IMG/VR virus record: IMGVR_UViG_3300047463_000283
Location: 1-20,659 of that record
Source: a virus
DNA length: 20,659 nucleotides
Strand: one strand, 5' to 3'
Position numbers and translations under genes: made by a program. Every line of letters starts with the position of its first letter. Positions within the stretch are counted from its first letter, which is position 1. Of this stretch, positions 1,745 to 20,560 are shown piece after piece. Under the pieces are notes generated by a model that worked only from the letters and a program-made list of their open reading frames with translations, ran no database searches and was not told the origin of the DNA.

Positions 1745-1752
1745 TATTTAGC
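1745..1752 (-). promoter_or_regulatory. Late-type promoter box GCTAAATA (weaker match)
   Basis: GCTAAATA matches the T4 late box at 6 of 8 positions. It sits in the 41-base gap between terL (ends 1763) and the 525-aa gene (starts 1721), with GGAG downstream of the predicted transcription start at about 1739. It is weaker than the GATAAATA copies, so confidence is moderate. Confidence 0.4.
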
Positions 1753-1762
1753 CGCAGAACGG

Positions 1763-4342
1763 TTAATTAATCATAATGCTGAATGGTAGTGGATCTCTGG
1801 CTTCACCTTCTGTGTCATCAAACACATCCCGCATCAGTTCGCCCACACGGTCATCCCAGTTTGTAACCATCTGCATTAGACGCACACACAGTATGGTGCT
1901 CATTACACAGTCATCGTGCTCACCAGTTTTGGCTTTGAATCCATCTCCTGTTGCTACGAAAAACTTTAATTGTTTCACCAGCATTTTGCTGCGTATATGC
2001 AGTTTATTGCTTTCAATCAAACTCTTTAATTTTGCACACGCTGCTGCTTTTGTTCTGCCGTTGGTGTTCAATCCACGACGAATTCTCACCATACCAGTTT
2101 TTCTGGGTTCATTCAGTAACTGTCCCTGGAAATTTTCTTCGCCAATATCCAGGATAGTTTGCAGTGCAGCCTCACCCATTGTATTGTTTTCAAATGTATA
2201 ATAGATTTCCGGCTCGCCCTTTTGTCCGGCTTTTTTACAATCCTCGTGTATCTTGGCAATGGTATTTTGAAGTATTCTCACCTGCTGTGGAATGGGTGTT
2301 CTATTACTGGTCCATTCTGCTACTTGAACCATATCAGGCAGGCTCCAGACCTCTATCGCAGCATAGTCTTTGCCAACTCCCTGACTTGGGTCAAGACTTA
2401 CAAGATATGTTTTACCAGCGGCTGGCTTTTCATACCATCTTACATCAGCGGTTCTGTAGATAGGGTCTACACCTCGCATTCTTTGTAGAGCCATACTGCT
2501 TATGAGAGTGCTTTCTTCACCGGCAAAGATGCACTCGTATTCTCGTTGAAATTTTTCAGCACCAATCTTGGCTCGCTCAGTTTCTGCCCATTCATCATCT
2601 CTGCCAGGCACATCGCTGTAGTGGGCACTGAAACTTTTGAAACCATTCACACCGATCCCGTCTGGTCTTTCATTACCACGCTCATCTATGGTGTTGATAG
2701 CACCCAACCAGATTTGTGCAAACATATCTTCATCACTGGCAGGAGTGGATGTAATGATGCATTTACCACCGGTTGCAAGTGTTGGCGACATTGCCGTCCA
2801 GAATTCACTGGCCACCCTGGGTTTAACGAACGCAAACTCGTCTAGATATAATAAACTGATACTCATACCGCGACCACTATCTGGTGTAGTAGTTGTGGCA
2901 ACAATTCTACTGCCATTATCAAACCGAATACTGGTAACATTGTATTCAACAACACCACAACGAATTGTATTGGGCATTTCTTCATAAGCGTATTTGATAC
3001 GCATCATAATTTCACTGGCTGCCTTGAATTTGTTAGCAGCAATCAACACCGTGACATCATCGTGGAACATAGCATACCATAGCAAATAGCCTGCTGCAGT
3101 GGTGGTGTTGTGGGTTGGCACCATAGTTTTTCCGCAAAGAAAAAGATGGCGTTCATCACTAACCTGTATACAACGCACAGGCACACTTTCAACGGGAATA
3201 ATGTCAGTAATATATAAGCGTGTGTTTTTGGGATGATTATGGGCTTTATGCAGTCTTGTTAATTTTCTGTTTAATCTAACAACATCGAAGGTGTTTGTGG
3301 TGAATACCAAAATATTATAAATCTGCCCATTTACAGTTTTCTTTCTGTGGCGACTCTTAATTCCAAGGCTTGAAAGCAGTTCTCTAACTTGTAGTATAAG
3401 AGTTTCATTCTTTTGATAAAATTCACAGTGTCCACCTGGATCAATACTTCCATCTGTATCCATTAACCCCTGTAATAGTTCTAATCTTTGTTGAATTGAA
3501 CCACGAAGATAAGATTGTGGAATGTGTTTATTTTTAAGGACACCTAGTTGCCTTAATAGGGGTCTAATACCATAAATGGTTCTGATGTGACTATTAGTGC
3601 TGTTAATTCTTGGCTTACTCAGTGTATATCCATCCACTTGTATGAATTGGGAAATTTCTTCATCATCTATAACAGATTGTGTATATCGTCCATCATAACT
3701 ATTTCCATCACCAAGCCATACTCCAAGAGTATATGGTTTAATCAATAGTTCTTGTTCAGGTAATTCAACTGCTTCCCCAGTCTCAATATACATACGACGA
3801 TTTTCTTGTGGGTTAGAAAACAGATATTCCCATATTTCTTCAGTTGTTCTTGTCTGTCGCTTCTTGGACCAATAGGAAGAAGTAACTTCCCATAAATGCT
3901 CTGCATCTGCGACAACTATCTCTCCATTATCAAACTTAACCTGATAACATTTTCTGTCATACATAATTTCGGTTGCAAATGTAACAGTGGTTGGTTTTCC
4001 CGTTGCACCTAAAATTTGGTCACCAACTTTAATATCACCCATGGTTGTCCAACCAGACGGTGTAGGAATTGGTGTATCCAGAGACAGTGCCTTGCCACTC
4101 TGCCTAGGTATCATTGCCACAGTATTTTTATACTGCCAATAGGTTTTTACTAGGTCTCGTTGAAACTCATAGGCAGTAAATGGTTGTCTGCCCCGTGTAG
4201 GATGTTGTATATACATGTGGTTCTCCATGAAATACAGAGGGTCCTTCATGCATTTGCTAAATTCTATCAATTCTTGTTGTGTATATGAGACTTTCATACC
4301 TGCTGGTTTAAGTTTTTGAAAGTCTGTGGTATTTTTTGCCAT
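1763..4342 (-). CDS. terL: Terminase large subunit (gp17/TerL) containing an intein
   Basis: This is the DNA-packaging motor ATPase and headful nuclease. The reading frame is 859 residues; removing the intein (85-412) leaves 531, near the size of aquatic T4-like gp17 and shorter than T4's 610. The Walker A PRQSGK ends at K84 and resumes as TTTAAG at T413. Walker B is LLYLDEF, with D501 and E502. The coupling motif is IITSTPAS (529-536). RNase H-like nuclease residues are D651 (SLDPSQG), E718 (TFENN) and D810/D811 (EHDDC), matching the acidic triad of T4 gp17. The start has GAGG upstream, overlapping the stop of the Usg-like gene at 4350, so translation may be coupled. TerS lies further upstream in the same leftward run. 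Packaging would require intein splicing because the P-loop is split. Confidence 0.97.
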   Translation of the reverse strand: MAKNTTDFQKLKPAGMKVSYTQQELIEFSKCMKDPLYFMENHMYIQHPTRGRQPFTAYEFQRDLVKTYWQYKNTVAMIPRQSGKALSLDTPIPTPSGWTTMGDIKVGDQILGATGKPTTVTFATEIMYDRKCYQVKFDNGEIVVADAEHLWEVTSSYWSKKRQTRTTEEIWEYLFSNPQENRRMYIETGEAVELPEQELLIKPYTLGVWLGDGNSYDGRYTQSVIDDEEISQFIQVDGYTLSKPRINSTNSHIRTIYGIRPLLRQLGVLKNKHIPQSYLRGSIQQRLELLQGLMDTDGSIDPGGHCEFYQKNETLILQVRELLSSLGIKSRHRKKTVNGQIYNILVFTTNTFDVVRLNRKLTRLHKAHNHPKNTRLYITDIIPVESVPVRCIQVSDERHLFLCGKTMVPTHNTTTAAGYLLWYAMFHDDVTVLIAANKFKAASEIMMRIKYAYEEMPNTIRCGVVEYNVTSIRFDNGSRIVATTTTPDSGRGMSISLLYLDEFAFVKPRVASEFWTAMSPTLATGGKCIITSTPASDEDMFAQIWLGAINTIDERGNERPDGIGVNGFKSFSAHYSDVPGRDDEWAETERAKIGAEKFQREYECIFAGEESTLISSMALQRMRGVDPIYRTADVRWYEKPAAGKTYLVSLDPSQGVGKDYAAIEVWSLPDMVQVAEWTSNRTPIPQQVRILQNTIAKIHEDCKKAGQKGEPEIYYTFENNTMGEAALQTILDIGEENFQGQLLNEPRKTGMVRIRRGLNTNGRTKAAACAKLKSLIESNKLHIRSKMLVKQLKFFVATGDGFKAKTGEHDDCVMSTILCVRLMQMVTNWDDRVGELMRDVFDDTEGEARDPLPFSIMIN
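3107..4090 (-). mobile_element. Intein with LAGLIDADG homing endonuclease, class 3 type, in the TerL P-loop
   Basis: In-frame insert of 328 residues (A85-N412 of the TerL frame). It starts ALSLDTPIPTPSGW with Ala at position 1 instead of Cys or Ser, continues with the block A pattern (IKVGDQILG), and ends VPTHN before extein Thr413. Block B has H149-L-W151. Block F has Cys391 (VRCIQV). Together W151, C391 and T413 make the Trp/Cys/Thr signature that defines class 3 inteins, which start splicing from the internal Cys rather than residue 1. Two dodecapeptide motifs, LGVWLGDG (206-213) and LLQGLMDTDG (289-298), mark a LAGLIDADG endonuclease with apparently intact acidic residues. The insertion falls between K84 and T413 of Walker A, a typical highly conserved ATPase site. 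Confidence 0.93.
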
Positions 4343-4635: not shown

Positions 4636-5655
4636 TCATGCGAATAAGTCCCTGACTTTTTCTAATCCGGTCAAGATTTTTTTCCGGTCTTGTTCTGCTC
4701 GTTCTTTGGCAGCAGGTGTTTCTGCTTTGTCTCGCTTGGCTGCTTCAAGGTCTTTCATAGCCTTGGCTTGATAAATGTTCCAGAATTTTTGGAGAAATTC
4801 AGTTGCATTACTGTAATGAGCCAGATCACCACGACCAAACATGCCGTTCATTTCAAAACTATATGCCAGACCTTTTACACCATTGACTAAATTGCTGATT
4901 TTTACATCTTGTAGATCTTTGCCAGGATGTTTTGCCAGTAGTGGATGAATTTTTGGGTCGGTGATTTTTTCTACAGCACACTCATGGTCAAAAATATCAC
5001 GAATGAAAGTTTCTGGATTTTTGGTTAGAGTTTCTAATTCGTAATTTGTTCTTGTAGTAGTAAATGGTTGCTTTATACCACCCCTGCTTTTAAATTGAAC
5101 ACCGCTGTATTGGATGCTCATCTTTAACAATTCACCAAGAACACTATAGATATTGCCATGCAGGGCACCTTTTACCCCACGCTCGGGGATTGCACGAGCA
5201 CTGCCCCAGCCTGCTATATCAGGAGTGTGTGGCATCAAATCAATCTGCACCCAGTCATCTGTGCCCACTTTCATAATTGGATGACCTGCTGTGCTTTCTG
5301 GATGTATATATGGTGGATGAACTTGCTTCACAAACTCATCTGCAAGATTATACCAAAATGCTTGTTTTTGGCTTTGACTTTTATCAGCAAGAGATTCAAT
5401 CTCTGGCACAACAATTTGCAGGTCAATATCGCCATATACTTTATCTTGAGGATCAACATGATGATATGCTGTTGAACCAGTAGGTGTGCCTAGTTTTGTT
5501 GGTGCTATGTTTCTCTTTGCCAGCCAACCGTTAAAGTCACGAACGAATTTTTCCGCCGTTTGTAGGGCTGATTTAACTATACCAGGGGTAATTACTGTGC
5601 CCTGTGTAATTTTGTTAGCCCAGCCACCCTCACAGATGATTTCACGAATCAGCAT
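4636..5655 (-). CDS. DNA polymerase beta-type nucleotidyltransferase-like protein
   Basis: A 339-residue protein. It carries the core signature of the pol-beta nucleotidyltransferase superfamily: G60-S61 (GTPTGST), then YGDIDLQIV with D76 and D78, then a third acidic residue D139 in WVQIDLM. All three metal-binding carboxylates are present, so it is probably active on an NTP. Substrate cannot be told; the superfamily includes tRNA-modifying, antibiotic-modifying, second-messenger-making and toxin-type enzymes. The C-terminal 35 residues are a charged helix (many K/E/A). No good Shine-Dalgarno is visible, but ATG lies one base after the stop of the upstream 244-aa gene, so coupling is likely. 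Position between virion-type genes and usg/terL suggests a role in assembly or host takeover, which is speculative. Confidence 0.85.
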   Translation of the reverse strand: MLIREIICEGGWANKITQGTVITPGIVKSALQTAEKFVRDFNGWLAKRNIAPTKLGTPTGSTAYHHVDPQDKVYGDIDLQIVVPEIESLADKSQSQKQAFWYNLADEFVKQVHPPYIHPESTAGHPIMKVGTDDWVQIDLMPHTPDIAGWGSARAIPERGVKGALHGNIYSVLGELLKMSIQYSGVQFKSRGGIKQPFTTTRTNYELETLTKNPETFIRDIFDHECAVEKITDPKIHPLLAKHPGKDLQDVKISNLVNGVKGLAYSFEMNGMFGRGDLAHYSNATEFLQKFWNIYQAKAMKDLEAAKRDKAETPAAKERAEQDRKKILTGLEKVRDLFA

Positions 5656-6392: not shown

Positions 6393-7181
6393 TTAGTTCT
6401 TTCCTTTTGGCTGCACTGCCTGCTTTGCCTTGCCGGTCTTTGGGTCCTTGAAGAACATTACCTTGGGGATAGCATTATCGCTCATTGAGCCACGGCTATT
6501 GACATATTCATCATCAACGGGTGCAGTGTCACTGGTTTTTGTAGTTGGTTTTGGTGTATTGTATTGGGCATTAAAATCACTGGTATCCTGTATAGGCTGT
6601 CCAGGTTCAATATCTTCCATTTGCAGCCAACTAAAAAGAGGACTCTTTGGTTCAACGTGCATGCTTGGACGTTCTGCACTTACACCAGCCAGATATGACA
6701 GGAACTTTTTGTTATACTCATCACCAAACAAATCTTGGACAGGCGGCTGCTCTGCATCTTGATAGAATCTGTCTGTGCTTAAACGTGGGGCGTGTTCATC
6801 ACCTGCTTTCTCAGCAGCCTCCTGTTCTAAACGCTTCCAGGAATCATACTCACTATAGCGTTCTACAGGTTCATTTGCACCACGCACCACGATATACTTT
6901 TCAGGTATATTAGCACAGTGTCGGAGATCCTGCTGCAAAATATAGGATACGCAAGGTGTCCCAATAGTAAATGTCATCATATGCACATCTTTGTTTGGGA
7001 TGTCAATGAAATCTTTGTGATCTTCTTCTACTTTTTCTGGTGTAGAAATGGTCTTTAGGTCATATCTCTTCAGCCATTCACCAATTATCTGCACCTGTTC
7101 TTCGGTTGGTGCTTGTGAAAAACGTATCACATAATTGTGTTCTCTTGAGCTTTCTTCGAGATATTGTTTGAAATTTTTCAT
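6393..7181 (-). CDS. Uncharacterised phage protein (262 aa)
   Basis: It begins MKNFKQYLEE, an N-terminal style shared by many virion and scaffold proteins of aquatic T4-like phages. Residues 15-105 look like a compact mixed alpha/beta domain (YVIRFSQAPTEEQVQIIGEW); the C-terminal half is polar, Pro/Asp/Thr-rich and probably disordered, ending in a basic tail (KTGKAKQAVQPKGKN). The start is supported by AGGAG nine bases upstream and by a late-type box GATAAATA at 7211-7204 that overlaps the stop of terS. It heads the run of genes leading to terL. Function unknown. Confidence 0.85.
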   Translation of the reverse strand: MKNFKQYLEESSREHNYVIRFSQAPTEEQVQIIGEWLKRYDLKTISTPEKVEEDHKDFIDIPNKDVHMMTFTIGTPCVSYILQQDLRHCANIPEKYIVVRGANEPVERYSEYDSWKRLEQEAAEKAGDEHAPRLSTDRFYQDAEQPPVQDLFGDEYNKKFLSYLAGVSAERPSMHVEPKSPLFSWLQMEDIEPGQPIQDTSDFNAQYNTPKPTTKTSDTAPVDDEYVNSRGSMSDNAIPKVMFFKDPKTGKAKQAVQPKGKN

Positions 7182-7202: not shown

Positions 7203-7664
7203 TTATTTATCATCACTACCCAGTTGGCGCAGATGTTTTAGGATTTCATTACGATCCAGGGCTACTGCAGTGCCTTCCACAGGCTTCTCGCTTGCATATG
7301 CACGGTCAAGTTTCATCTTGTCCAGTTGCAATCTCAGTAATTTTAGTTTCTTTTCCACCTTGTTATTTTTGGCATCCACGGCGATTTTCAGCATCTGACT
7401 AGAACTAGTAAAAATTTCACCTGCGTGACGAACTTCAACATTCATTCCCAATTCTTGTAGATCCTTATGTGCCTGAATGGCTAGCGTTGATAACTCATCC
7501 ATTTCAGCATCATGCTGATCATAGCCATCAATTTGATTAAACTGTTTTTCCAGGTCCTGTGCTTGTGCTAATGCTGCTTGAATATCATCTTCCGTGGTCT
7601 CAATAGCCTGATCAATTGGAGGTAAGTCCAGGATTTCTTCTAATTTTGTAAATTTATTACTCAT
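7203..7664 (-). CDS. terS: Terminase small subunit (gp16/TerS-like)
   Basis: 153 residues, close to T4 gp16 (164). It is almost entirely helical and charged. The central segment (VRHAGEIFTSSSQMLKIAVD) followed by a Lys/Leu heptad-like helix (KLKLLRLQLDKMKLD, about 105-120) fits the long antiparallel coiled-coil core of T4-type small terminases, which form rings that regulate the large subunit and recognise DNA. Acidic N terminus and extended C terminus also fit. It lies upstream of terL in the same direction, though four genes intervene, unlike T4 where the two are adjacent. There is no Shine-Dalgarno; a TTTAAATA box sits exactly five bases before ATG, predicting a leaderless late mRNA. Confidence 0.72.
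   Translation of the reverse strand: MSNKFTKLEEILDLPPIDQAIETTEDDIQAALAQAQDLEKQFNQIDGYDQHDAEMDELSTLAIQAHKDLQELGMNVEVRHAGEIFTSSSQMLKIAVDAKNNKVEKKLKLLRLQLDKMKLDRAYASEKPVEGTAVALDRNEILKHLRQLGSDDK
7204..7211 (-). promoter_or_regulatory. Late-type promoter box GATAAATA
   Basis: GATAAATA on the minus strand, overlapping the terS stop codon (7203-7205). The predicted transcription start is about 7198, giving a 17-base leader with AGGAG before the ATG at 7181. Confidence 0.55.
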
Positions 7665-7669
7665 AAAGG

Positions 7670-7677
7670 TATTTAAA
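7670..7677 (-). promoter_or_regulatory. Late-type box TTTAAATA, leaderless spacing
   Basis: TTTAAATA on the minus strand, one mismatch from TATAAATA, between the gp4 stop (7678-7680) and the terS ATG (7664). The five intervening bases are CCTTT. T4 late transcription starts about six bases after the box, which is the A of the ATG. No Shine-Dalgarno is present. Confidence 0.45.
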
Positions 7678-8124
7678 TTATTTCTTGCGACGTTGTGTTC
7701 CTTTGGTCACAAATATTTGGTCTTCTGTAAGAACACGGAAATTTATGCCATTTTTCTTACACCATGTCATGGCAGCAGCCCATTTGGCAGTGTTGAGAAC
7801 CAGTGCTGCTTTGTCACGCTTGCTTCTGGCATTTTCTGCAATTGCTTCTTTAGCAGGTTTGACTTCAATTAACTCGGCTTTTTGCTGACCACGTTTGTCC
7901 TTGTAAACAATTAAAAAATCCGGTATATACTGGTGCATTCTGCCATCAAGTGGGCTTTTGTAAGGTATTGCAACACTTTCACTGGCCCAGTTGATTACAT
8001 ATGGATGCTGGTCCAGTAACATCATGACCCGCAATTCCCAAGAACTTCTATAAACTGGCACAGATTTTCCTACAATTTTCTGTGGATTTTTGGGTATAAA
8101 TTCACCCTGAGAAAATTTACTCAT
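7678..8124 (-). CDS. 4: Head completion protein gp4-like, TnsA-type nuclease fold
   Basis: 148 residues, matching the T4 gp4 (gp50) head-completion family. The sequence shows a PD-(D/E)xK nuclease core of the TnsA type: E30 in YRSSWE, D69 in YIPDF, and E87-x-K89 in IEVKP, with AIPY and HQYIPDF strands as in TnsA N-terminal domains. In T4, gp4 acts late in head maturation, before tail joining; a DNA-trimming role is inferred from the fold. The start overlaps the stop of the upstream 157-aa gene by four bases (ATGA), so translation is coupled. The C terminus is basic (TQRRKK). All catalytic positions appear intact. Confidence 0.88.
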   Translation of the reverse strand: MSKFSQGEFIPKNPQKIVGKSVPVYRSSWELRVMMLLDQHPYVINWASESVAIPYKSPLDGRMHQYIPDFLIVYKDKRGQQKAELIEVKPAKEAIAENARSKRDKAALVLNTAKWAAAMTWCKKNGINFRVLTEDQIFVTKGTQRRKK

Positions 8125-8594
8125 GGCTGATCTGTGAGTGCGGCTGCTATACTACCACGTAATATTTGGTTATTAAACCATACTGGATTGGGGTTTATTG
8201 TTGCTACACCCAGTTGTGCACCAAGAGGTGCCAGAGTATTATATGCCTTTATAAAGGCTTTTGTGACACCATTTTCATTGAACAAATCAGATATAGGCAC
8301 ACCCTGTGTAGAATTAATATATGCTGCAACACTGGCGATTGAATCAACCAATTCTACTGGGACATTTGTCTTGGCAAAATATCCTTTTGCCAGATCCAAT
8401 GATGCTGCGGACAATTTAGGATTGTTGGATTTAATAGGATTATTCAACAACGCCGAGGTTACTGGCGGTAAATTTAATACTGCACCAGTTGCAGTATTGG
8501 TATATTGATATGATGATCCACGTGTGGTGATTGCGATTTGACCACTTTGTTTCGCTATCTGTTGCTTGATTGTTTGGGCTGTAAAATTTACCAC
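8121..8594 (-). CDS. Uncharacterised small structural-type protein (157 aa)
   Basis: Not recognised. The sequence is polar and Ala/Asn/Thr-rich without charged clusters, membrane segments or signal peptide, as is common for tail or baseplate proteins. N terminus TAQTIKQQIAKQSGQ looks helical; the C-terminal half has an AFIKAYNTLAPLGAQLG helix-turn stretch. The start is GTG at 8594 with AAGGAA about six bases upstream; no ATG is available nearby. The 3' end overlaps gp4 by four bases. It sits between the 340-aa tube-family gene and gp4, so a tail or connector role is plausible but unproven. Confidence 0.82.
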   Translation of the reverse strand: MVNFTAQTIKQQIAKQSGQIAITTRGSSYQYTNTATGAVLNLPPVTSALLNNPIKSNNPKLSAASLDLAKGYFAKTNVPVELVDSIASVAAYINSTQGVPISDLFNENGVTKAFIKAYNTLAPLGAQLGVATINPNPVWFNNQILRGSIAAALTDQP

Positions 8595-8618
8595 AAGTCA
8601 TTCCTTATATTGTTGTAT

Positions 8619-9641
8619 TTAAAAATAAACTGGTTGTCCTCCAACAGAACTTGTATCTGCTGCTGGAGTGGGTAAATTTGCTCCCGGTGCAACACTTGCA
8701 TCTTGCGGAGAGTTATCTGTTAGTGAATTTTGTGAAGTTGTAGCGGTTGTAACTGCGTTGGGATTGGTAATATTATTTGTATCCACAAGTGTTTGTGGTG
8801 AACTGCTTTGAGCAGGCTGCTGAGTTGATAAAAAGATCCTTGGATAAGCAGATGGGATTGGGTCGGGTGCATCTCCTGGTGGATTTATATAGTCGTCTGC
8901 ATTAAATCCAAATCTTGACATAAATCCCAGTGATTCATTTGTAATAGGTTGAGCATAAGCAAGATATCTAATGGCTTCGTACTTAAATTGTATATTGAGT
9001 TCGTCCAAATCATTGGAACTGTAGTCATAACTTTGCCAGTCTATTGTTGTTATTTTTGGGTTTACATACTCCCATGCTGTATATGTGTTTGCAAACAATG
9101 AATAAACTATTATTCCTGTAAAAAAATGGTTTTCTTTATCCACTAGGGGTTGAAATCCCCACCCAGTGTCCCAATTCATCTGCGGTTCATATGGAGATTT
9201 AGTATAAGGGGCTGGGGGACTGGCATCATTTAAAGAATCATTTGCTTTTAATCTACTATCAGCAAAATAAAAGGTAAAATAATCAATCCAGGTTGCTAGG
9301 ACACTATTGTCAACGGTATCATGAAGTTTAACAGATGCCTCACTGTATTCAACTCTTTTATATATTAAAACTTTTTTATTATATTGATTTAGTTCCTCAG
9401 TTTGTAGTTGAATTTTTGGTTTATCTATAGTTTTGACCTTGAAAGACAACCCTCTATCACTGAAGTAATTGTTTAGATTGGCATTGCTTTCTATCATAGA
9501 TTTTGCCTGGGCACTGGGAACAAACTGAACATAGAATTCAAATTTGTACCTGGGCACACTTTGCATTATGCTGCCAGGAGAATTTACTCCAAATACACGA
9601 GAGGCTATTTGTGGACTACGTAATGAAACAGTTTCACTCAT
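8619..9641 (-). CDS. Second tail-tube-family (gp19/gp54-like) structural protein
   Basis: 340 residues. Residues about 28-245 resemble the T4 tail-tube fold seen in gp19 and the tube-initiator proteins gp48/gp54: a strand opening (PRYKFEFYVQF), the segment LSFKVKTIDKPKIQLQTEE, then NQYNKKVLIYKRVEYSEASV, then HDTVDNSVLATWIDYFTFYF. Residues about 260-340 are a Pro/Ser/Thr/Asn-rich tail, probably disordered. It lies just downstream of gp19 behind a terminator and has its own late box CATAAATA. The box is five bases before ATG with no Shine-Dalgarno, so the mRNA may be leaderless. Whether it is the tube initiator, a tube-interacting adaptor or another baseplate protein cannot be decided here. Confidence 0.85.
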   Translation of the reverse strand: MSETVSLRSPQIASRVFGVNSPGSIMQSVPRYKFEFYVQFVPSAQAKSMIESNANLNNYFSDRGLSFKVKTIDKPKIQLQTEELNQYNKKVLIYKRVEYSEASVKLHDTVDNSVLATWIDYFTFYFADSRLKANDSLNDASPPAPYTKSPYEPQMNWDTGWGFQPLVDKENHFFTGIIVYSLFANTYTAWEYVNPKITTIDWQSYDYSSNDLDELNIQFKYEAIRYLAYAQPITNESLGFMSRFGFNADDYINPPGDAPDPIPSAYPRIFLSTQQPAQSSSPQTLVDTNNITNPNAVTTATTSQNSLTDNSPQDASVAPGANLPTPAADTSSVGGQPVYF

Positions 9642-9646
9642 GGTAA

Positions 9647-9654
9647 TATTTATG
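9647..9654 (-). promoter_or_regulatory. Late-type box CATAAATA, leaderless spacing
   Basis: CATAAATA on the minus strand between the terminator (9659-9685) and the ATG at 9641. The spacer is TTACC, five bases. Predicted transcription start is the A of the start codon. No Shine-Dalgarno lies upstream of the ATG. Confidence 0.6.
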
Positions 9655-9658
9655 CATT

Positions 9659-9685
9659 AAAAAAGCGGTGACTAGCACCGCTTTT
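9659..9685 (-). terminator. Rho-independent terminator after gp19
   Basis: 10-bp stem AAAAGCGGTG / CACCGCTTTT (arms 9661-9670 and 9676-9685) with a five-base loop. Read leftward, the descending arm continues into six Ts. It ends the gp19 transcript 38 bases past its stop and insulates the next late promoter, which follows at once. Confidence 0.9.
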
Positions 9686-9722: not shown

Positions 9723-10358
9723 TTAGCCGCCTATTTGATTGCCGCCAAGATTCTGCTGAATATCTTGGTGAGAATCTAGGGAATTATAGTTTACGATTTG
9801 TTGTGCATTATCAAACTTGATTGTAAGTGTTAGCTGTACTGCATCTGAACTTGCGTAGTCAAGACTATCATATGCAACCTGTTGTATGAAGCAACCTTCA
9901 AGATACCATTTTTCCAGTATTGCAGAGTTATTACCACCGCTAGTTCCATCAAGGGTATTGATATCCATTTCAAACTTATAGTTGACACCTGCTGGGGCTG
10001 CACTTTGACTCAGGTGATTCATTTGTTTTTGGACCTGATTATTGACTTCATAAGTCACCAAGTTTGTAATATCATCACGTAATACAAGTTCTATTTCGCC
10101 CCACTCGGGTTTTTGGGCAATGTACATGATGTTATTGTAACTATGAATCGGTGTATTGTTGAAATTCAAAGTTGGTCGCCCACATGTAACTACCTGTTGT
10201 GTAAGAAAAAATGGGGCACCAGGGTTTACGCCAAAATGTGTGAATGTAATTTGAAATCTGTGTTTTAGTTTGGGCATCAAAAGCCCAATGCCAGGACCAG
10301 TGCCGTCTGGGCCGATTGGCACACCGAATTGATTAAGAGTTGTAATTGTTCCACTCAT
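9723..10358 (-). CDS. 19: Tail tube protein gp19
   Basis: 211 residues. It forms the inner tube of the contractile tail through which DNA passes. The family is shown by the LKHRFQITFTHFG strand near residue 31, the central IAQKPEWGEIELVLRDD segment, and the conserved C-terminal pattern LEKWYLEGCFIQQVAYDSLD followed by YASSDAVQLTLTIKFDNA. T4 gp19 is 163 residues; the extra length is an N-terminal Gly/Pro-rich arm and a Gln/Gly-rich tail. The start has AAAGGAG eight bases upstream and a late box GATAAATA at 10390-10383. The Shine-Dalgarno lies in the loop of an 8-bp inverted repeat. A strong terminator follows. In T4 this gene directly follows gene 18; here a four-gene cassette lies between them. 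Confidence 0.95.
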   Translation of the reverse strand: MSGTITTLNQFGVPIGPDGTGPGIGLLMPKLKHRFQITFTHFGVNPGAPFFLTQQVVTCGRPTLNFNNTPIHSYNNIMYIAQKPEWGEIELVLRDDITNLVTYEVNNQVQKQMNHLSQSAAPAGVNYKFEMDINTLDGTSGGNNSAILEKWYLEGCFIQQVAYDSLDYASSDAVQLTLTIKFDNAQQIVNYNSLDSHQDIQQNLGGNQIGG

Positions 10359-10383
10359 AGTTTTACTCCTTTGCTGTAAAACT
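10359..10383 (-). promoter_or_regulatory. Inverted repeat holding the gp19 Shine-Dalgarno in its loop
   Basis: AGTTTTAC (10359-10366) and GTAAAACT (10376-10383) form a perfect 8-bp stem; the nine-base loop reads AGCAAAGGA on the message strand, most of the Shine-Dalgarno. A transcript started at the late box (about 10377) lacks most of the 5' arm, so only read-through messages from upstream would fold. Confidence 0.45.
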
Positions 10384-10390
10384 ATTTATC
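10383..10390 (-). promoter_or_regulatory. Late-type promoter box GATAAATA for gp19
   Basis: GATAAATA on the minus strand, 24 bases before the gp19 ATG. Predicted transcription start about 10377, leaving a 19-base leader with AAAGGAG. Confidence 0.65.
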
Positions 10391-12055: not shown

Positions 12056-15000
12056 TTAACCTCCCTTGGGCAGGGTTGCTCCAGTTGCCATAACTCTTAC
12101 TGGAATATATATAAATTCAATCGATTTTTCAGGTTGAATTGCTATATCAATCCAGAGTTGATTGGCATCTATTCTAACAGGAGTATTATTGCTGCTATCA
12201 CAGATCACGGAGAAATCATATAGAGCACGCAAACCTACAAGTCCGTTTAGATAGCCCTTGAACACTGCTGTTACATTTGTTCTTGTTTGAGTGTCATTTT
12301 GTTCAAACAAGAATGGTTGTGCTAACTGATTAAGATGCCAAGAAAGATATGCACAGAGACGTGCAACATTTACACGGTCAAGAGCAGTTGCAATTGGGTC
12401 TAGGGTTTTTTGACCAAATACAACTAGTCCACGACCCGGCATGTATGCGATAGGATTAATGCTATTTGCATAAAGCACATCGCGTTGTCCCTGGGTCAGC
12501 TTTACTGGAACATAATATCCAGATGAATCTAGATATCCAACACTACTAACAACACTGACAAGTCCTCTGGTAAATCCTGCTGGTGCAAACCATGGATATG
12601 CCACTGAGTCGTTATAGGCAATGGTTGTCAAGGCAACTAAACTTGGGGGCACCAACACATCTGTACCTTGTAGATCCTGGGTTAGTCCCCATGGATACCA
12701 TAGTCCCATATATGGGCTATGGGTAATTAGTCCATCTGGTCCATTTTCAGCAACATCAGCTGCATTGGTTGCCCAATTCTGAATTGCTGTTCCAGTTGGT
12801 ACCAGTGTGCTTGGAGTGTCACCGATGACAAATGCGACATTATTGATATCTACATTTAATTGTACCATTTGTGCGATACATTCTGGATAACCAGGAGCAG
12901 ATATAAGTGAATAATAGTTATCTTGTGCACGAATATCCTGATTGGTTTCAAATGCACTGTTCATAGCAGCAACAACCACTGCTCGTTGAGCAGCAGGACC
13001 CATGTATGCAACACCATTAGGAGCATTGCCACTGAATGTTACCCATGTGTCTGTTGGATAAGCAGTACCAAGATTTTGTGGGAATGCACTAACAGTCCAC
13101 TTCTTAACGTTATAAGTACTGTAACGTGTGTTGAAAAGTAACATATAGGGAGGATACAGTAGTGGATCAGGGGCATCTGGATCTAGAACTGGTGCAGATT
13201 GACCTACAGTTCTATTCATAGCGGCGGGCACTTGACTCCCACTTGTAGTACCATCAGCAGTATAACGAGCATCTGCAAATATTATTCCTGCACTGGATGC
13301 ATGGTCGGTGTTATCAATTTGAATCCAAGATGCAGTAGATGCATTATATCTACTAATCTGTGGATATGGCTTCATATCAGTATTGATCCAAAGGTCATAA
13401 TCACTCAGTGGTGAACCTGTACTTTGAGTCAATGGAATTGCTGAACTTAGGATTGGTCCATTTGGATCAGTTCCAGGATACAAATTGCCGTAACATTGCC
13501 ACACAGTTCCTGTATTGACAAGTATATCTGCTCGCAATTCAGTATTATACCAAAGTGTACCATCGGATGGAGGACCAGCAGGTTCACTGATACTGGATAC
13601 ATATTGCAAATTCATCCACTGGAAACCATCCCAGTAATTTAGAAGTACATTTGCAGTGACAGGCATATCATCGTAATAATTATATTGACCGTAGATACTA
13701 CCATAGGCTTTTAAAGCACCAAAGGCCGTATCAGCAGCACTATCACCGGTATACAGTGGTATATTTCCTGTATTAGGTGTAGAGTTTTGACTTACCCACT
13801 CACCACTTTCATATCTCTTCACTACAAGATTGACGCCGTTTCCAGCAGGTGTAGTATTGATCCAGACATTTTCTGCTTTTAGAGCAGACAGTGAAGATGG
13901 TACAGTTAGGGTCGGAGCATAGCCTTGATAGACCATTCCTCGCCCGAATGTCGTACCAGTAGCAATACCTGCTGTTTTTAATGGAGTGCCTGACAAGTCA
14001 GCAAGTGAAAATGCAGTTCCGTTTGTGTTTGTGATCACAAGTTGATTTGAACTGTTTGTTGAAGCAACAATCGGACCACTTGGGAAAGCAACAGTATTGA
14101 TTTGCTGTACCAGCTGTGCTAGGGTTGCGTAGTTAATAGATGGACTGAGTGATGCTGGAACATGAACAGTTACTGGACTTTGACCAGGAATTGTCACACT
14201 AAAGCTGTTACTTGTTAAGAATCCAGATGTCAGTGCAAATGTTGCACCCGTACCTGAACCACCAGATACACTCACAGTACCAACTGGGTATACGGTATAA
14301 TTACCAGCAACAGCCACGTTTGTTGTATTAACACCCCAAACAATTGTAAATGTTGCATTTTGTCCAACACCACTTGTTGCGCTTACTGGTACATCGGAAG
14401 TTGGTGCAGTAAGCCCCGTGTACTGACCGTTTTGAATTATATTAACAGATTCAATTGCACCATTGTTGATTGCTTCAACCACAGCAACTATTGTGGTTGT
14501 GTAATTGGAATCAGATATCCCAAATGTAATAGTATCGTTTACTCGGTATCCAGTTCCAGAAGCACCACCAGTTGGCACCAAACTTACAGCTTCTAGGCTT
14601 TGGACTGAAAGTTGAGTTGCAGTTGAATGGGTTCCGCCAATAACTGTCAAAGTATCTCCAACAACATATCCAGACCCAGGAGCAATAACCCCGGCAGACT
14701 GAGTGAGAAGAGTTGCGGCAACAAATGTAGGTTGACTTGCGGTTCCTGTGACAGATGCCCAATATGTATTGGTTGTTGGAATGCCAGCAAGTGCAAGTGT
14801 TGTCCCTACACCGTTTTGGTCGGTGAGGTCCTGTAGTTTAACAGATGTTGCATCATAATTTGTTAGTGTGAGATATTTTGATGCTCCATTAACTGTAATG
14901 GTAGCAATTGTGTTTGTACTTGCAAGAGCAGTATTAATTGTACTTACTAATCCAGGAAGAGATGTATCTCCAACTGTAACGGTAATGGGTGATGCGTTAT

Positions 15001-16159
15001 CAATTGATATTGTGAATTGATGACCCGTAACAAAAACTGGATTTGCAGATGTTCCTGTGATCACAGTTGGAACGGCGCCAATCCATGAATATCCAGGATA
15101 TTCAATTTCTCCACTACCAACTGGGAACCACCAAGTATTTGTGGTTTGGCTTGTAGCCAGAGTGATCATCTGGAAAACGGTATTTGTATAATTACCCATT
15201 TCATCGGCAAGCGTATTGACGGCATAATTTCCAGAAATTCCCAAAGACATGACGGGCTCAATTACTGTCAAAGGCTCGTCAGTACGGGAAAACCCTAAAT
15301 CATCCAGAATGGTAGGCATAGAAGATGGTGAACCTCCTTCACTGAAAAAGGTAAATGGTACACGGCAATTTGAATTAGTAAGACGTATATTGCAAATATC
15401 ACCAACTGAGTTGGATGTTAATTTTGCTGTACGTGTAAAGATAGTAGCTGTTATTCCTTGAATCTTTAATTGAGAGTTGGCATTTATTGCACTAACAACT
15501 CCGGCCAGACTTTGACCTGCGGTTAGCGGAACTGCCACGCCATTTATCACGAGATTTCCGCTATAAGATATAGCTGCAACAGAACTACTAGTTAGAGGTC
15601 CGCCAATATTACGATTGCCCTGTGTTACGGCGCAAAGTTTATTATCACTAGAAATTACAATAGGCTTTTGTGATTGCCATGCATATGCTGGATTGATGTT
15701 TCCGTTACTCTGGAATATTCCCCAGGTTGAATTCTGTGTATCTAACCAATATGTACCATTCAATGTTGGACCTGTTGGTGTAGAGGTATTGGGCACTAGT
15801 TGTTCTAGATCAACATTTGCACGAATTACATATGCACTATTTGCCACACCCAGGTATTGATAAAGAGTGAATAGTCCTATCTCGTTTAGTTCATTATCAT
15901 ACTGAGCACTTCCAGCTGCACTATAGAAAGTTGGATTGCCAAATGTTTGAAGAGCATCTCGTTGACTTGTAATTAGATACAAATCTCCGGCATTTTGTGG
16001 AAGAGTTCCTGGTGCAATATTTGTAGTTGAACCTGGCGCTAGTTTATTAGCAGCCGTGGCGATTACAATAAGTGGAACAGTTCCTGGACCTGATGCTCCG
16101 TAAGCACTTTCATCAATGATGCTTACTTTTACGCCTGGTGAAACTAGAGAACCTGACAT
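12056..16159 (-). CDS. 18: Tail sheath protein gp18, greatly enlarged
   Basis: 1367 residues, about twice T4 gp18 (659). It forms the contractile sheath around the tube. Sheath parts are the N terminus (SLVSPGVKVSIIDES...VPLIVIATAANK, 1-115) and the C-terminal 300 residues (AVVVAAMNSAFETNQDIRAQ, GRGLVVFGQKTLDPIATALD, RVNVARLCAYLSWHLNQ, EFIYIPVRVMATG). Between them lie extra surface domains: three repeats like the flagellin/FliD IN motif (about 197-290, 380-462, 648-736), Gly-rich repeats GSGYVVGDTLTV and GTGYRVNDTITF (about 494-645), and four Trp-containing modules of the type DLWINT...SW (about 130-160, 761-790, 863-890, 916-949). The start has GAGG six bases upstream and a late box. A strong terminator follows. 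The frame is unbroken, so the insertion is presumably functional. Confidence 0.95.
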   Translation of the reverse strand: MSGSLVSPGVKVSIIDESAYGASGPGTVPLIVIATAANKLAPGSTTNIAPGTLPQNAGDLYLITSQRDALQTFGNPTFYSAAGSAQYDNELNEIGLFTLYQYLGVANSAYVIRANVDLEQLVPNTSTPTGPTLNGTYWLDTQNSTWGIFQSNGNINPAYAWQSQKPIVISSDNKLCAVTQGNRNIGGPLTSSSVAAISYSGNLVINGVAVPLTAGQSLAGVVSAINANSQLKIQGITATIFTRTAKLTSNSVGDICNIRLTNSNCRVPFTFFSEGGSPSSMPTILDDLGFSRTDEPLTVIEPVMSLGISGNYAVNTLADEMGNYTNTVFQMITLATSQTTNTWWFPVGSGEIEYPGYSWIGAVPTVITGTSANPVFVTGHQFTISIDNASPITVTVGDTSLPGLVSTINTALASTNTIATITVNGASKYLTLTNYDATSVKLQDLTDQNGVGTTLALAGIPTTNTYWASVTGTASQPTFVAATLLTQSAGVIAPGSGYVVGDTLTVIGGTHSTATQLSVQSLEAVSLVPTGGASGTGYRVNDTITFGISDSNYTTTIVAVVEAINNGAIESVNIIQNGQYTGLTAPTSDVPVSATSGVGQNATFTIVWGVNTTNVAVAGNYTVYPVGTVSVSGGSGTGATFALTSGFLTSNSFSVTIPGQSPVTVHVPASLSPSINYATLAQLVQQINTVAFPSGPIVASTNSSNQLVITNTNGTAFSLADLSGTPLKTAGIATGTTFGRGMVYQGYAPTLTVPSSLSALKAENVWINTTPAGNGVNLVVKRYESGEWVSQNSTPNTGNIPLYTGDSAADTAFGALKAYGSIYGQYNYYDDMPVTANVLLNYWDGFQWMNLQYVSSISEPAGPPSDGTLWYNTELRADILVNTGTVWQCYGNLYPGTDPNGPILSSAIPLTQSTGSPLSDYDLWINTDMKPYPQISRYNASTASWIQIDNTDHASSAGIIFADARYTADGTTSGSQVPAAMNRTVGQSAPVLDPDAPDPLLYPPYMLLFNTRYSTYNVKKWTVSAFPQNLGTAYPTDTWVTFSGNAPNGVAYMGPAAQRAVVVAAMNSAFETNQDIRAQDNYYSLISAPGYPECIAQMVQLNVDINNVAFVIGDTPSTLVPTGTAIQNWATNAADVAENGPDGLITHSPYMGLWYPWGLTQDLQGTDVLVPPSLVALTTIAYNDSVAYPWFAPAGFTRGLVSVVSSVGYLDSSGYYVPVKLTQGQRDVLYANSINPIAYMPGRGLVVFGQKTLDPIATALDRVNVARLCAYLSWHLNQLAQPFLFEQNDTQTRTNVTAVFKGYLNGLVGLRALYDFSVICDSSNNTPVRIDANQLWIDIAIQPEKSIEFIYIPVRVMATGATLPKGG
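13940..15577 (-). repeat. Inserted repeat region of the sheath (flagellin-IN-like and GxGY repeats)
   Basis: Covers sheath residues about 195-740. Three divergent units share the order: a strand with ING or a similar turn, V-x-V or V-P-L, a helix ending in INA/INT, then a strand pair ending in a leucine/glycine (LDDLGF, LALAGI, LKTAGI). This order resembles the flagellin hook IN motif. Between units two and three lie Gly-rich repeats with GYxVxDTxTxxG. Identity at the protein level is low, so no clear DNA repeat is expected. Confidence 0.65.
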
Positions 16160-16191: not shown

Positions 16192-16199
16192 TATTTATC
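16192..16199 (-). promoter_or_regulatory. Late-type promoter box GATAAATA for gp18
   Basis: GATAAATA on the minus strand. Predicted transcription start about 16186, with a 27-base leader containing GAGG before the ATG at 16159. Confidence 0.65.
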
Positions 16200-17894: not shown

Positions 17895-17921
17895 AGTATC
17901 ACACCACTGGATATTTGTCAA
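17895..17921 (-). promoter_or_regulatory. Sigma70-like promoter for pth2
   Basis: On the minus strand, a perfect TTGACA (17921-17916) and an extended -10, TGT-GATACT (GATACT at 17900-17895), 15 bases apart. The spacing is short, but the extended -10 compensates. It overlaps the end of gp13 and contrasts with the GATAAATA boxes of structural genes. Confidence 0.5.
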
Positions 17922-18670
17922 CCAATAACTATCAATGGCGGGCTGCTGGCATCAATATAATTGTCAAGTTCTTTTTCAAGAACTTCTCGCTCAGCGAGGG
18001 CTTCTTGCTTAAGAGCATCACCTTTAAGGGTTGTTCCACCACCTGGACCAATAATGGTATTGAATTTGCTGTATGCTTCTCCCAACTGAGTTTTACACCA
18101 TGTAAGAGCATATGAACGAATCCAAGGTCGGATGAAAGGGTCCTGTAGTAATTCTTCATCAACTCTGGTTCGCATGCACCATAGAACCATGGTTTCACCT
18201 CCAGTTGGTTTGCGAATTAGAGTCAACAATTTGGTAACTGGATTAAATGTATAATTGATGTAGGCACCGAACATACGTCCAGCCTGCTTCAAATATTCAT
18301 TAAAAAGTTCGTAGGTCAACAACCCCGCTGTGTAACCACCACCAGCACCTGCCTGAAGAAGATACAAATTGGTATATGCCAGTGAAAATGGGTCCAGATA
18401 TGTGCCACCCTGAGTAGAACCAAGACCTCTACGATAAATTCCTCTAACTTGAATGATTTCTTCAGGTAGCGTGTATTGATTGGTGTCATAGAGAACATGC
18501 AAAAAATAATAGGATTCTTCTGCTGAATTTCCTGCTCTTTGACGATATCTATCAAAAGCCAGAGTCATAGCATTTTCATAATGCTCTGGATCAAGTTCAA
18601 TATCAACCATCTGTCCACCCATCATAAGGCGGATTTGGTCAATAATTTGCTGTCTTAGTGGTGTTGCCAT
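17918..18670 (-). CDS. 13: Neck protein gp13
   Basis: 250 residues (T4 gp13 is 309). It forms part of the neck that closes the filled head and joins it to the tail, working with gp14. The family is shown by the N-terminal LRQQIIDQIRLMMGGQMVDI helix with ELDPEHYENAMTLAFDRYRQ, the strand YTLPEEIIQVRGIYR, and the conserved C-terminal helix block PWIRSYALTWCKTQLGEAYS with KFNTIIGPGG. ATG at 18670 has no Shine-Dalgarno; a late box GATAAATA ends five bases before it, predicting a leaderless mRNA. It is divergent from gp14, unlike T4, where 13 and 14 run in the same direction. Confidence 0.9.
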   Translation of the reverse strand: MATPLRQQIIDQIRLMMGGQMVDIELDPEHYENAMTLAFDRYRQRAGNSAEESYYFLHVLYDTNQYTLPEEIIQVRGIYRRGLGSTQGGTYLDPFSLAYTNLYLLQAGAGGGYTAGLLTYELFNEYLKQAGRMFGAYINYTFNPVTKLLTLIRKPTGGETMVLWCMRTRVDEELLQDPFIRPWIRSYALTWCKTQLGEAYSKFNTIIGPGGGTTLKGDALKQEALAEREVLEKELDNYIDASSPPLIVIG

Positions 18671-18675
18671 ACCAA

Positions 18676-18703
18676 TATTTATCGTTTTACATGTAGATAA
18701 ATA
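18676..18703. promoter_or_regulatory. Divergent pair of late boxes between gp13 and gp14
   Basis: TATTTATC at 18676-18683 (GATAAATA read leftward) and GATAAATA at 18696-18703 (read rightward) are an exact inverted repeat with 12 bases between. The left box is five bases from the gp13 ATG; the right box predicts transcription from about 18709 with a 19-base leader and AGGG before gp14. Confidence 0.7.
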
Positions 18704-18727: not shown

Positions 18728-19870
18728 ATGCCGCCTCTAGCACTTTGGAAAGGCCAAGCCGTAAAAACCAACGACTACAAATTCATAGACAGAGTAGTTG
18801 CTCAAATGTATGATGTAGGTGGCACAGAATTTTATATTCACAAATACATGGGAACCTATGAACAGGACCCAGGCACAAATAGCACACTGCCACTTGATAT
18901 AAGTGCGTCTGGTTCAGGAGACCCAACCCTGACAATTCAAGATGTGCTTAACATGGAAAATCGTGACAGAAAGTACGATCCAAATGTATACAGTATGAAG
19001 GGTCATTATCAGTTAGCAGATACTGAATTTGATTTACGGCAATTTGGATTATTTTTAAGTAACGATACAATTTTTATTACTTTTCATCTAAACAAGATGC
19101 TAGACCAATTGGGTAGAAAAATCATGAGTGGAGATGTAATAGAAATTCTTCACGTGCGAGATGATGCCGTTCTTGGAACAAATGCCGCAATAAATCGCTA
19201 CTATGTTGTAGAAGAGGGCACCAGACCTGCTGAGGGATACAGTCCAACTTGGTGGCCACACATGTGGAGAATCAAGTGCAATCCCATGCCAGATAGCACA
19301 GAATTTAGAGACATCATGCAAGCACCATTACTGGATGCTAGCGGAGATCCTGTGCCAGCACTTGATGGCAGCGGTGGATTTGCTACACTTGGTGATGCAT
19401 TAAGTACTAGAAATGCTGAAAATGCAATCAGCGATGCAGTTGATGCTGCAGCACAGGCAGAGGTACCATTCTGGTATTTCCAAACACAGAGTTGGTATAT
19501 TCTGCCCAACCAAAACCCAAATCCTGTTGGCAGTCCTGTTATCGGTGATAATGATATTTGGACTGGAAATGGTATCCCACCAAATGGCAGCAAACCAGTA
19601 AACATGGGTACAAGTTGGCCAGCATCTCCACTTAATGGCGATTACTTTTTGCGAACTGACTGGGCACCGCCACAATTGTTTAACTATCAAAATGGTATTT
19701 GGACCTGGATCCAAACTGATTTTAGAAATCAGTGGTTGCCAGCAAATGATACACTAGTGAGTTTCATAAATAATAAAAACATTACTACCCTATCCAACGG
19801 AACTGTTCTGCCGGAACAACAAAATTTAAGAACAGCCATCCGACCAAAACTTGATCCGGACATCTTATAA
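18728..19870 (+). CDS. 14: Neck protein gp14, with extra C-terminal module
   Basis: 380 residues, versus 256 in T4. The conserved neck part is residues about 15-195: VVAQMYDVGGTEFYIHKYMG, the NMENRDRKYDPNVYSMKGHY segment, GLFLSNDTIFITFHLNKM, and the RPAEGYSPTWWPHMWRIKC region. In T4, gp14 joins gp13 in the head-to-tail neck. Residues about 200-345 are extra: an Ala-rich linker then Trp-rich modules, including SPLNGDYFLRTDW (300-312) followed by NYQNGIWTWIQTD, which resembles a module in the sheath. ATG has AGGG seven bases upstream and a late box at 18696-18703. The GH19 gene follows after 11 bases. Confidence 0.88.
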   Translation: MPPLALWKGQAVKTNDYKFIDRVVAQMYDVGGTEFYIHKYMGTYEQDPGTNSTLPLDISASGSGDPTLTIQDVLNMENRDRKYDPNVYSMKGHYQLADTEFDLRQFGLFLSNDTIFITFHLNKMLDQLGRKIMSGDVIEILHVRDDAVLGTNAAINRYYVVEEGTRPAEGYSPTWWPHMWRIKCNPMPDSTEFRDIMQAPLLDASGDPVPALDGSGGFATLGDALSTRNAENAISDAVDAAAQAEVPFWYFQTQSWYILPNQNPNPVGSPVIGDNDIWTGNGIPPNGSKPVNMGTSWPASPLNGDYFLRTDWAPPQLFNYQNGIWTWIQTDFRNQWLPANDTLVSFINNKNITTLSNGTVLPEQQNLRTAIRPKLDPDIL

Positions 19871-20516: not shown

Positions 20517-20524
20517 GTTAAATA
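20517..20524 (+). promoter_or_regulatory. Weak late-like box GTTAAATA
   Basis: GTTAAATA on the plus strand, one base different from the GATAAATA form seen elsewhere, six bases after the lysin stop. Predicted start about 20530, leaving a 16-base leader with AGGTG. Weaker than the other boxes. Confidence 0.3.
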
Positions 20525-20560
20525 TGCCAATATTAGGTGTGAGTAATGCAATATTGGTAT
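20524..20560 (+). promoter_or_regulatory. Hairpin with ribosome site and start codon of the gp15-like gene in its loop
   Basis: CCAATATT (20527-20534) pairs with AATATTGG (20550-20557). Three outer pairs (ATG with TAT, one G-T) extend the stem to 11 pairs. The 15-base loop AGGTGTGAGTAATGC holds the Shine-Dalgarno (AGGTG) and the ATG (20546-20548). The structure needs a transcript coming from gp14 or the lysin. Confidence 0.5.

Follow-up and report, generated by a model that had tools for sequence, protein, structure and literature searches.

In the 20,659-base virus record IMG/VR IMGVR_UViG_3300047463_000283, analysed over its whole length and here called the window, the start codon of a gene of the tail-tube family is preceded at a distance of only five bases by an octamer of the bacteriophage T4 late-promoter type, which raises the question of whether transcription of such a gene could begin on its own start codon and yield a messenger RNA devoid of a leader. 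The window encodes a terminase, a tail sheath, two tail-tube-family genes, a gp13-like head-tail adaptor and a virion structural protein, and its nearest named relatives, as judged from a comparison of its tail-tube proteins, are jumbo phages of the PA5oct, Phosso, Atu_ph07 and CBB/RaK2 groups.

In the current work, the distance between a late box and a start codon is indicated as Nx, where x is the number of bases from the box to that codon, and genes with a box at N4 to N6 (N4 to N7 among orthologues) are referred to as the short class. The T4 late octamer TATAAATA is reported to occupy positions -13 to -6 of the start site (PMC1524935), which agrees with the start about six bases past the box assumed in a preliminary description of this locus; a box at N5 would therefore put position +1 on the A of the ATG. 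The -35 region of T4 late promoters is reported not to be conserved (PMC2988020).

Late boxes in the window

The arrangement of box, five bases and ATG described for the 340-aa gene at positions 9639-9654 was confirmed on the minus strand (Table 1). The same layout, as had also been proposed, precedes the gp13-like gene and the gene starting at 7664, although the designation of the latter as TerS did not hold, its sole PHROG match being of unknown function. All three sites carry TATAAATA-like octamers (CATAAATA, TTTAAATA and GATAAATA) in the -10 position, and all three ATGs are the most upstream ATG, GTG or TTG of their reading frames. The core of the window boxes is NTAAATA, with first bases that vary as in other T4-like phages, and the boxes stand before structural genes (tail tube, sheath, gp13 and virion structural protein). 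A box at N21 to N32 is present in seven further genes, mostly with a Shine-Dalgarno (SD)-like stretch. The terminator claimed just upstream of the box of the 340-aa gene is real, consisting of a 10-pair hairpin and a U run which none of 200 shuffled sequences equalled; this hairpin is absent from the list produced by a consensus scan for terminators.

Table 1 Positions of late boxes and associated features in the window
Feature	Position	Strand	Remarks
T4-type late box CATAAATA	9647..9654	-	N5 upstream of the ATG of the 340-aa tail-tube-family gene
Five-base spacer, 340-aa gene	9642-9646	-	
ATG of 340-aa gene	9639..9641	-	Predicted first codon and predicted transcript +1
340-aa tail-tube-family gene	8619..9641	-	phrog_13438 E 6e-18, phrog_4542 E 8e-10
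Intrinsic terminator hairpin of upstream transcript	9661..9685	-	Directly ahead of CATAAATA box; -13.1 kcal/mol, z -4.5
Late box TTTAAATA	7670..7677	-	N5 from ATG 7662-7664; adjoins stop codon of preceding gene
153-aa gene	7203..7664	-	phrog_16202, unknown function, sole PHROG match
Late box GATAAATA	18676..18683	-	N5 from ATG 18668-18670 of gp13-like gene
gp13-like head-tail adaptor gene	17918..18670	-	phrog_211 E 8e-30
Late box GATAAATA, leadered	18696..18703	+	N24; divergent from gp13 promoter (putative); upstream of gene at 18728
Late box GATAAATA, leadered	10383..10390	-	N24; upstream of 211-aa tail-tube gene (9723-10358)
Late box GATAAATA, leadered	16192..16199	-	N32; upstream of tail-sheath gene (12056-16159)
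Late box GATAAATA, leadered	7204..7211	-	N22; upstream of gene 6393-7181
Late box GCTAAATA, leadered	1745..1752	-	N23; upstream of gene 144-1721
Late box TTTAAATA	8616..8623	-	N21; upstream of GTG 8594
Late box GTTAAATA	20517..20524	+	N21; upstream of ATG at 20546

The two opposed boxes between 18676 and 18703 lie about 12 bases apart, the gp13 side having the layout predicted to be leaderless and the 18728 side being leadered; most orthologues have the leadered layout on both sides. At gene 4636-5655, TTTAAATA is located only two bases from the ATG, as it is in the related locus L038, and this box is probably due to chance or part of a different arrangement because it is too close for the leaderless model. 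As a separate observation, the terminase large subunit (1763-4342) is 859 aa long with a LAGLIDADG domain (residues 285-345) preceding the terminase match, while that of the 517-kb relative described below measures 532 aa; the window terminase probably carries an intein.

Considering the window alone, an ATG is present at exactly N5 in three of the 13 NTAAATA boxes, which corresponds to P=0.0019 for N5 alone and to P=0.077 once 41 spacings are allowed for. The number of late boxes is not above chance (12 seen versus 12.1 expected), and sigma-70-like sites between 7000 and 19000 are at chance level (38 versus 40.2 expected), with no late box forming the second hexamer of a sigma-70-like site among the matches listed for this interval. 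The pattern in the window is suggestive only, and since this evidence is not conclusive by itself, relatives were examined.

Spacing between late boxes and start codons in relatives

The relatives included IMG/VR records of 517 kb (G010), 561 kb (G009), 453 kb (G001) and 75 kb (G012). Genes were called by a simple iterative script covering approximately 90% or more of the large genomes, which replaced a first gene caller covering approximately 65%, and counts vary slightly between analyses depending on the box variants included and on the portion of an ORF accepted as its “start”. Several sequences were used in part (560,000 of 561,116 bases, 60,000 of 62,864 and 120,000 of 147,743, as well as 380,000 of 384,670 for XacN1, 280,000 of 286,783 for PA5oct and 400,000 of 490,380 for Atu_ph07), and a 170-kb record was left out as a separate count, its matches recurring in the 453-kb record. 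Spacing controls consisted of permuted and rearranged A/T motifs and of a ranking of all 7-mers; the reversed box was rejected as a control, since both patterns contain ATAAATA.

WTAAATA boxes with an ATG at exactly N5 numbered 44 of 175 in G010, 20 of 139 in G001 and 17 of 114 in the 560,000 bases of G009 that were used, the corresponding numbers being 0, 3 and 2 for GTG and 1, 1 and 0 for TTG. When all 7-mers were ranked at spacings 0 to 30, ATAAATA-N5-ATG represented the strongest combination of 7-mer and spacing in G010 (39 seen, 2.2 expected), the second in G001 and the 13th in G009, in which a repeated coding motif takes the top rank, and the rearranged A/T motifs produced no peak comparable to that of the late box. 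The preliminary description had made its reading depend on a genome-wide enrichment of the five-base spacing, and this enrichment was found when the relatives were scanned; the box, given there as [GCT][AT]TAAATA, is better written NTAAATA, and N4 and N6 also occur.

Sorting of the ATGs at gene starts by the presence of a box at N4-6, N7-15 or N16-44 gave counts of 60/3/78 for G010, 51/7/70 for G009, 34/13/81 for G001, 9/1/10 for G012 and 3/0/5 for the window. Among cultured phages, Stenotrophomonas phage RAS14 gave 7/4/60 and Xanthomonas phage XacN1 gave 16/5/67, its 16 short-class genes including two pairs that resemble terminal-repeat copies, so that approximately 14 are distinct. The short class is missing from T4 (0/8/40) and Syn9 (0/2/24), and no enrichment is seen in Atu_ph07 (2/8/78) and PA5oct (2/7/53) although these are relatives. 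Smaller pieces gave 2/1/15 (G003), 2/0/10 (G004), 2/0/4 (G007) and 3/0/6 (G005), G011 gave 2/0/22, and the closest larger relatives of the window (pieces of 60 kb and 51 kb) contain two short-class genes each. Some lineages therefore show the short class as a separate peak, which T4 lacks. A box beyond N7 but nearer than about N16 would result in a leader too short for an SD, and this zone is nearly empty. In G009, N4 is nearly as frequent as N5 (21 versus 25), and therefore the start site may be flexible, or not fixed at N5.

Other motifs were noted in the same records. The sequence FKLKW is found within the last 14 residues of 58 of the 944 called proteins of G009 (L127-L154) and elsewhere in none, and FKMRW within the last 14 residues of 16 of 149 proteins of G012 (L090-L093); the proteins listed are mostly small, occur in arrays and have an acidic stretch preceding the motif, and six that were tested had no convincing Pfam or PHROG match. 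In G001 (L061-L083), the top pair of 7-mer and spacing is GGTTGAC 21 bases upstream of ATG (28 seen, 3.8 expected); 34 of its 43 broader matches are outside same-strand genes, the consensus TGCTATGTT follows, and the element resembles a strong early promoter, its ATG apparently not serving as a start codon.

Orthologous genes in two layouts

For nine box-bearing window genes, 203 start regions including those of the window were collected, of which 22 lacked a box at N4-44 and a further 44 duplicated an upstream sequence; their removal left 137 distinct starts. Two further box-bearing genes were omitted, namely 4636-5655 (box N2; one orthologue) and 8121-8594 (GTG), no box being present upstream of the listed orthologues of the latter. 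Among the 137 starts, the box is located at N4-7 in 25, at N8-15 in none and at N16-44 in 112.

The 340-aa tube gene, whose N-terminus diverges, has its box at N5 in eight of nine distinct cases including the window and at N7 in the remaining one, while the 153-aa gene has a [TG]TAAATA box at N5 in seven of eight (six of the seven other box-bearing orthologues). For gp13, the box is at N5 in the window, L004 and L027, at N6 in L036 and in a leadered position (N17-22) in 21 others; the same start codon is used in both layouts, close orthologues share a MATPLRQ-type start, and gp13 proteins of close relatives with switched layout are >90% identical. The 20546 gene, with its box at N21 in the window, has orthologues at N5 in L018, L020, L021 and L036. 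Judged from box positions, orthologous genes are switched between leadered and short layouts.

Shine-Dalgarno sequences and start codon identity

As previously described, the three N5 genes have no SD, with a mean anti-SD duplex energy of +0.97 kcal/mol compared to -6.28 for five window genes with a box at N14-45, though this is forced by geometry. Duplex energies of N4-6 genes are around zero or positive in every set because the box and spacer fill the SD site, and hence this absence does not constitute independent evidence. An SD is present upstream of leadered box genes (mean duplex energy -4.5 to -8.2 kcal/mol versus -0.9 to -2.6 at random sites of the same genomes), and SDs are therefore in use elsewhere by the translation system.

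The orthologue starts include no GTG among the 25 with short spacing, all being ATG, versus seven among the 112 leadered ones, and in the three large relatives the N4-6 total is five GTG/TTG versus 145 ATG; the bias is less clear in XacN1 (four versus 16). Leaderless messages are reported to require a 5’-terminal AUG, with GUG or UUG working poorly in E. coli (PMC9031893), which would fit the ATG bias of the short class. Purine preference at N5 of leadered boxes is weak, and low 5’ structure was dropped as a leaderless signature, being inconsistent across the short class.

Genomic context and functions of short-class genes

A divergent gene is located upstream of 60% of the 60 short-spacing genes of G010 versus 25% of 502 unboxed genes, and a co-directional upstream gene at short distance precedes approximately 40% (G010) and 65% (G001) of short-spacing genes. 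Short-class genes would appear from this context to often begin transcription units.

Of 20 large short-spacing genes scanned in G010, seven match a structural PHROG (the terminase large subunit, proteins of the tail fibre and collar, a gp13 homologue and two virion proteins), one is an esterase, and 12 have no match or unknown function. Ten short-class genes of G001 include one tail tube and one endolysin, together with four others resembling a homing endonuclease, two kinases and a methyltransferase, and ten of G009 include one tail sheath-related protein and one virion protein. Among six short-class genes of RAS14 and four of XacN1 are those for a baseplate wedge, for an endolysin and for a protein homologous to the 18728 protein of the window. 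These functions fit late genes, with exceptions and with late function shown for a minority, in a comparison that is uneven as the short-spacing sets contain larger proteins and the comparison set consists of ten unselected genes.

A proposed late promoter merged with the start codon and alternative explanations

A gp55-like late sigma factor is encoded by G001, G009 and G010, and also by XacN1, RAS14, T4, Syn9, PA5oct and Atu_ph07; none was seen within the window record, which covers only 20,659 bases, nor in seven other IMG/VR records searched, possibly fragments. We consider it highly likely that the three sites of the window are T4-type, gp55-dependent late promoters yielding leaderless mRNAs, and that they represent a second, discrete late-gene architecture. 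Position +1 would coincide with the A of the start codon or be at most one or two bases away, and the resulting late mRNA (5’-pppAUG...) would be translated independently of an SD, the most likely route being that a 70S ribosome binds the 5’-terminal AUG directly. Other late promoters of the same phages would be of the ordinary kind, with an SD and a leader of roughly 10 to 40 nt, resulting in two discrete architectures between which orthologous genes have switched. As predicted from the position of the box, late messages of short-class genes are probably leaderless; the promoter role of the box in this phage, the precise point at which transcription starts, its late timing and the translation route are all things we infer.

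It is doubtful, and at present a speculation, that leaderless translation would in addition represent regulated late output, whereby the phage alters host initiation at a late stage of infection (for example through initiation-factor or initiator-tRNA levels) such that the leaderless subset of late genes is favoured in translation, and the layout switch tunes timing or dose per gene. A phage initiator tRNA as enabling factor was dropped, as initiator-like Met tRNAs are also found in two phages without the layout, PA5oct and Atu_ph07. A Met tRNA of RAS14 (OP752703 c299847-299920) has an anticodon stem of the initiator type (GGG..CAT..CCC); CAT-anticodon tRNAs of G001, G010 and G012 look initiator-derived by eye, and only that of RAS14 passed the GGG..CAT..CCC test.

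The box-N5 promoters could be real while protein is made mainly from upstream read-through transcripts, by translational coupling or 70S scanning, with the leaderless transcript as a by-product. The near co-directional upstream genes in G010 and G001 would allow for this, as would the stop codon adjoining the box of the 153-aa gene, yet most G010 short-spacing genes have a divergent gene upstream, a strong terminator stands ahead of the box of the 340-aa gene, and coupling predicts neither the exact N4-N6 spacing nor the empty N8-15 zone nor ATG-only starts, so that we regard this explanation as improbable.

Even less credence is given to TAAATA before the ATG being an A/U-rich translation element that replaces the SD rather than a promoter. 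Its fixed distance from the ATG would suit such a role, and A/U-rich contexts are possible in non-SD genes elsewhere; however, orthologues hold the same box at N16-N44, where it could not act as a ribosome site and is accompanied by an SD, rearranged A/T control motifs lack a comparable peak, and the box matches the T4 late promoter in phages whose relatives encode a gp55-like sigma. Least plausible of all is that the start codons are wrong and translation in fact begins further downstream, behind a separate leader and SD, for although leaderless starts are often mis-annotated and the deposited start differs in two of eight RAS14 and XacN1 genes checked, the other six coincide with the N5 ATG, leadered gp13 orthologues with an SD begin MATPLRQ at the same codon, no start codon lies further upstream in the frames of the three N5 ATGs of the window, and the 340-aa gene has no further ATG, GTG or TTG ahead of a conserved LRSP.

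Comparison with known systems

The proposed leaderless late promoters share with those of T4 (gp55/gp33/gp45) the core of the box, its position and its location upstream of structural genes. T4 itself is without the box-N5-ATG layout: it has no called genes with a box at N4-6, whereas here a large share of late boxes is fused to the ATG, and of eight HTAAATA-N5-ATG matches in T4 seven were checked, none being an annotated start. For the jumbo relatives CBB and GAP32, the same late box is reported, with ATAAATA as the late motif and leaderless messages unmentioned in the passage concerned (PMC5259590); CBB differs in showing no N5 excess (three N5 matches versus six for the reversed control pattern).

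A -10 motif adjoining ORFs is reported to give leaderless mRNA in Deinococcus-Thermus (PMC12340547), which resembles the present layout in that a -10 element lies a few bases ahead of the ORF; that system involves host genes and a host sigma factor, whereas here a viral late box, a gp55-type sigma and leadered and leaderless promoters would operate together. The lambda cI transcript is a reported leaderless phage mRNA (PMC9031893) and likewise a phage message starting at AUG; cI is a single regulatory gene, whereas the largest relatives each have tens of short-class genes, and these encode, among others, tail, connector, terminase and lysis proteins. There are precedents for leaderless mRNAs, for T4 late promoters and for the placement of a -10 element against an ORF; their combination, as predicted here, is apparently new. 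In the accessible open-access literature, no report was found of leaderless T4-type late mRNAs or of late promoters systematically fused to starts; counter-examples may exist among T4-like phage transcriptomes published in subscription journals.

Implications

If this reading is true, a large group of environmental jumbo phages would express many of their virion genes via leaderless late mRNAs. The start codons and promoters of such phages would be jointly predictable, and two of the eight deposited starts checked disagree with the layout. The switch in gp13 layout between close relatives would provide natural matched pairs with which to address why leaderless mRNAs exist, how translation proceeds during infection and how the dose of late genes is set by where the promoter lies.
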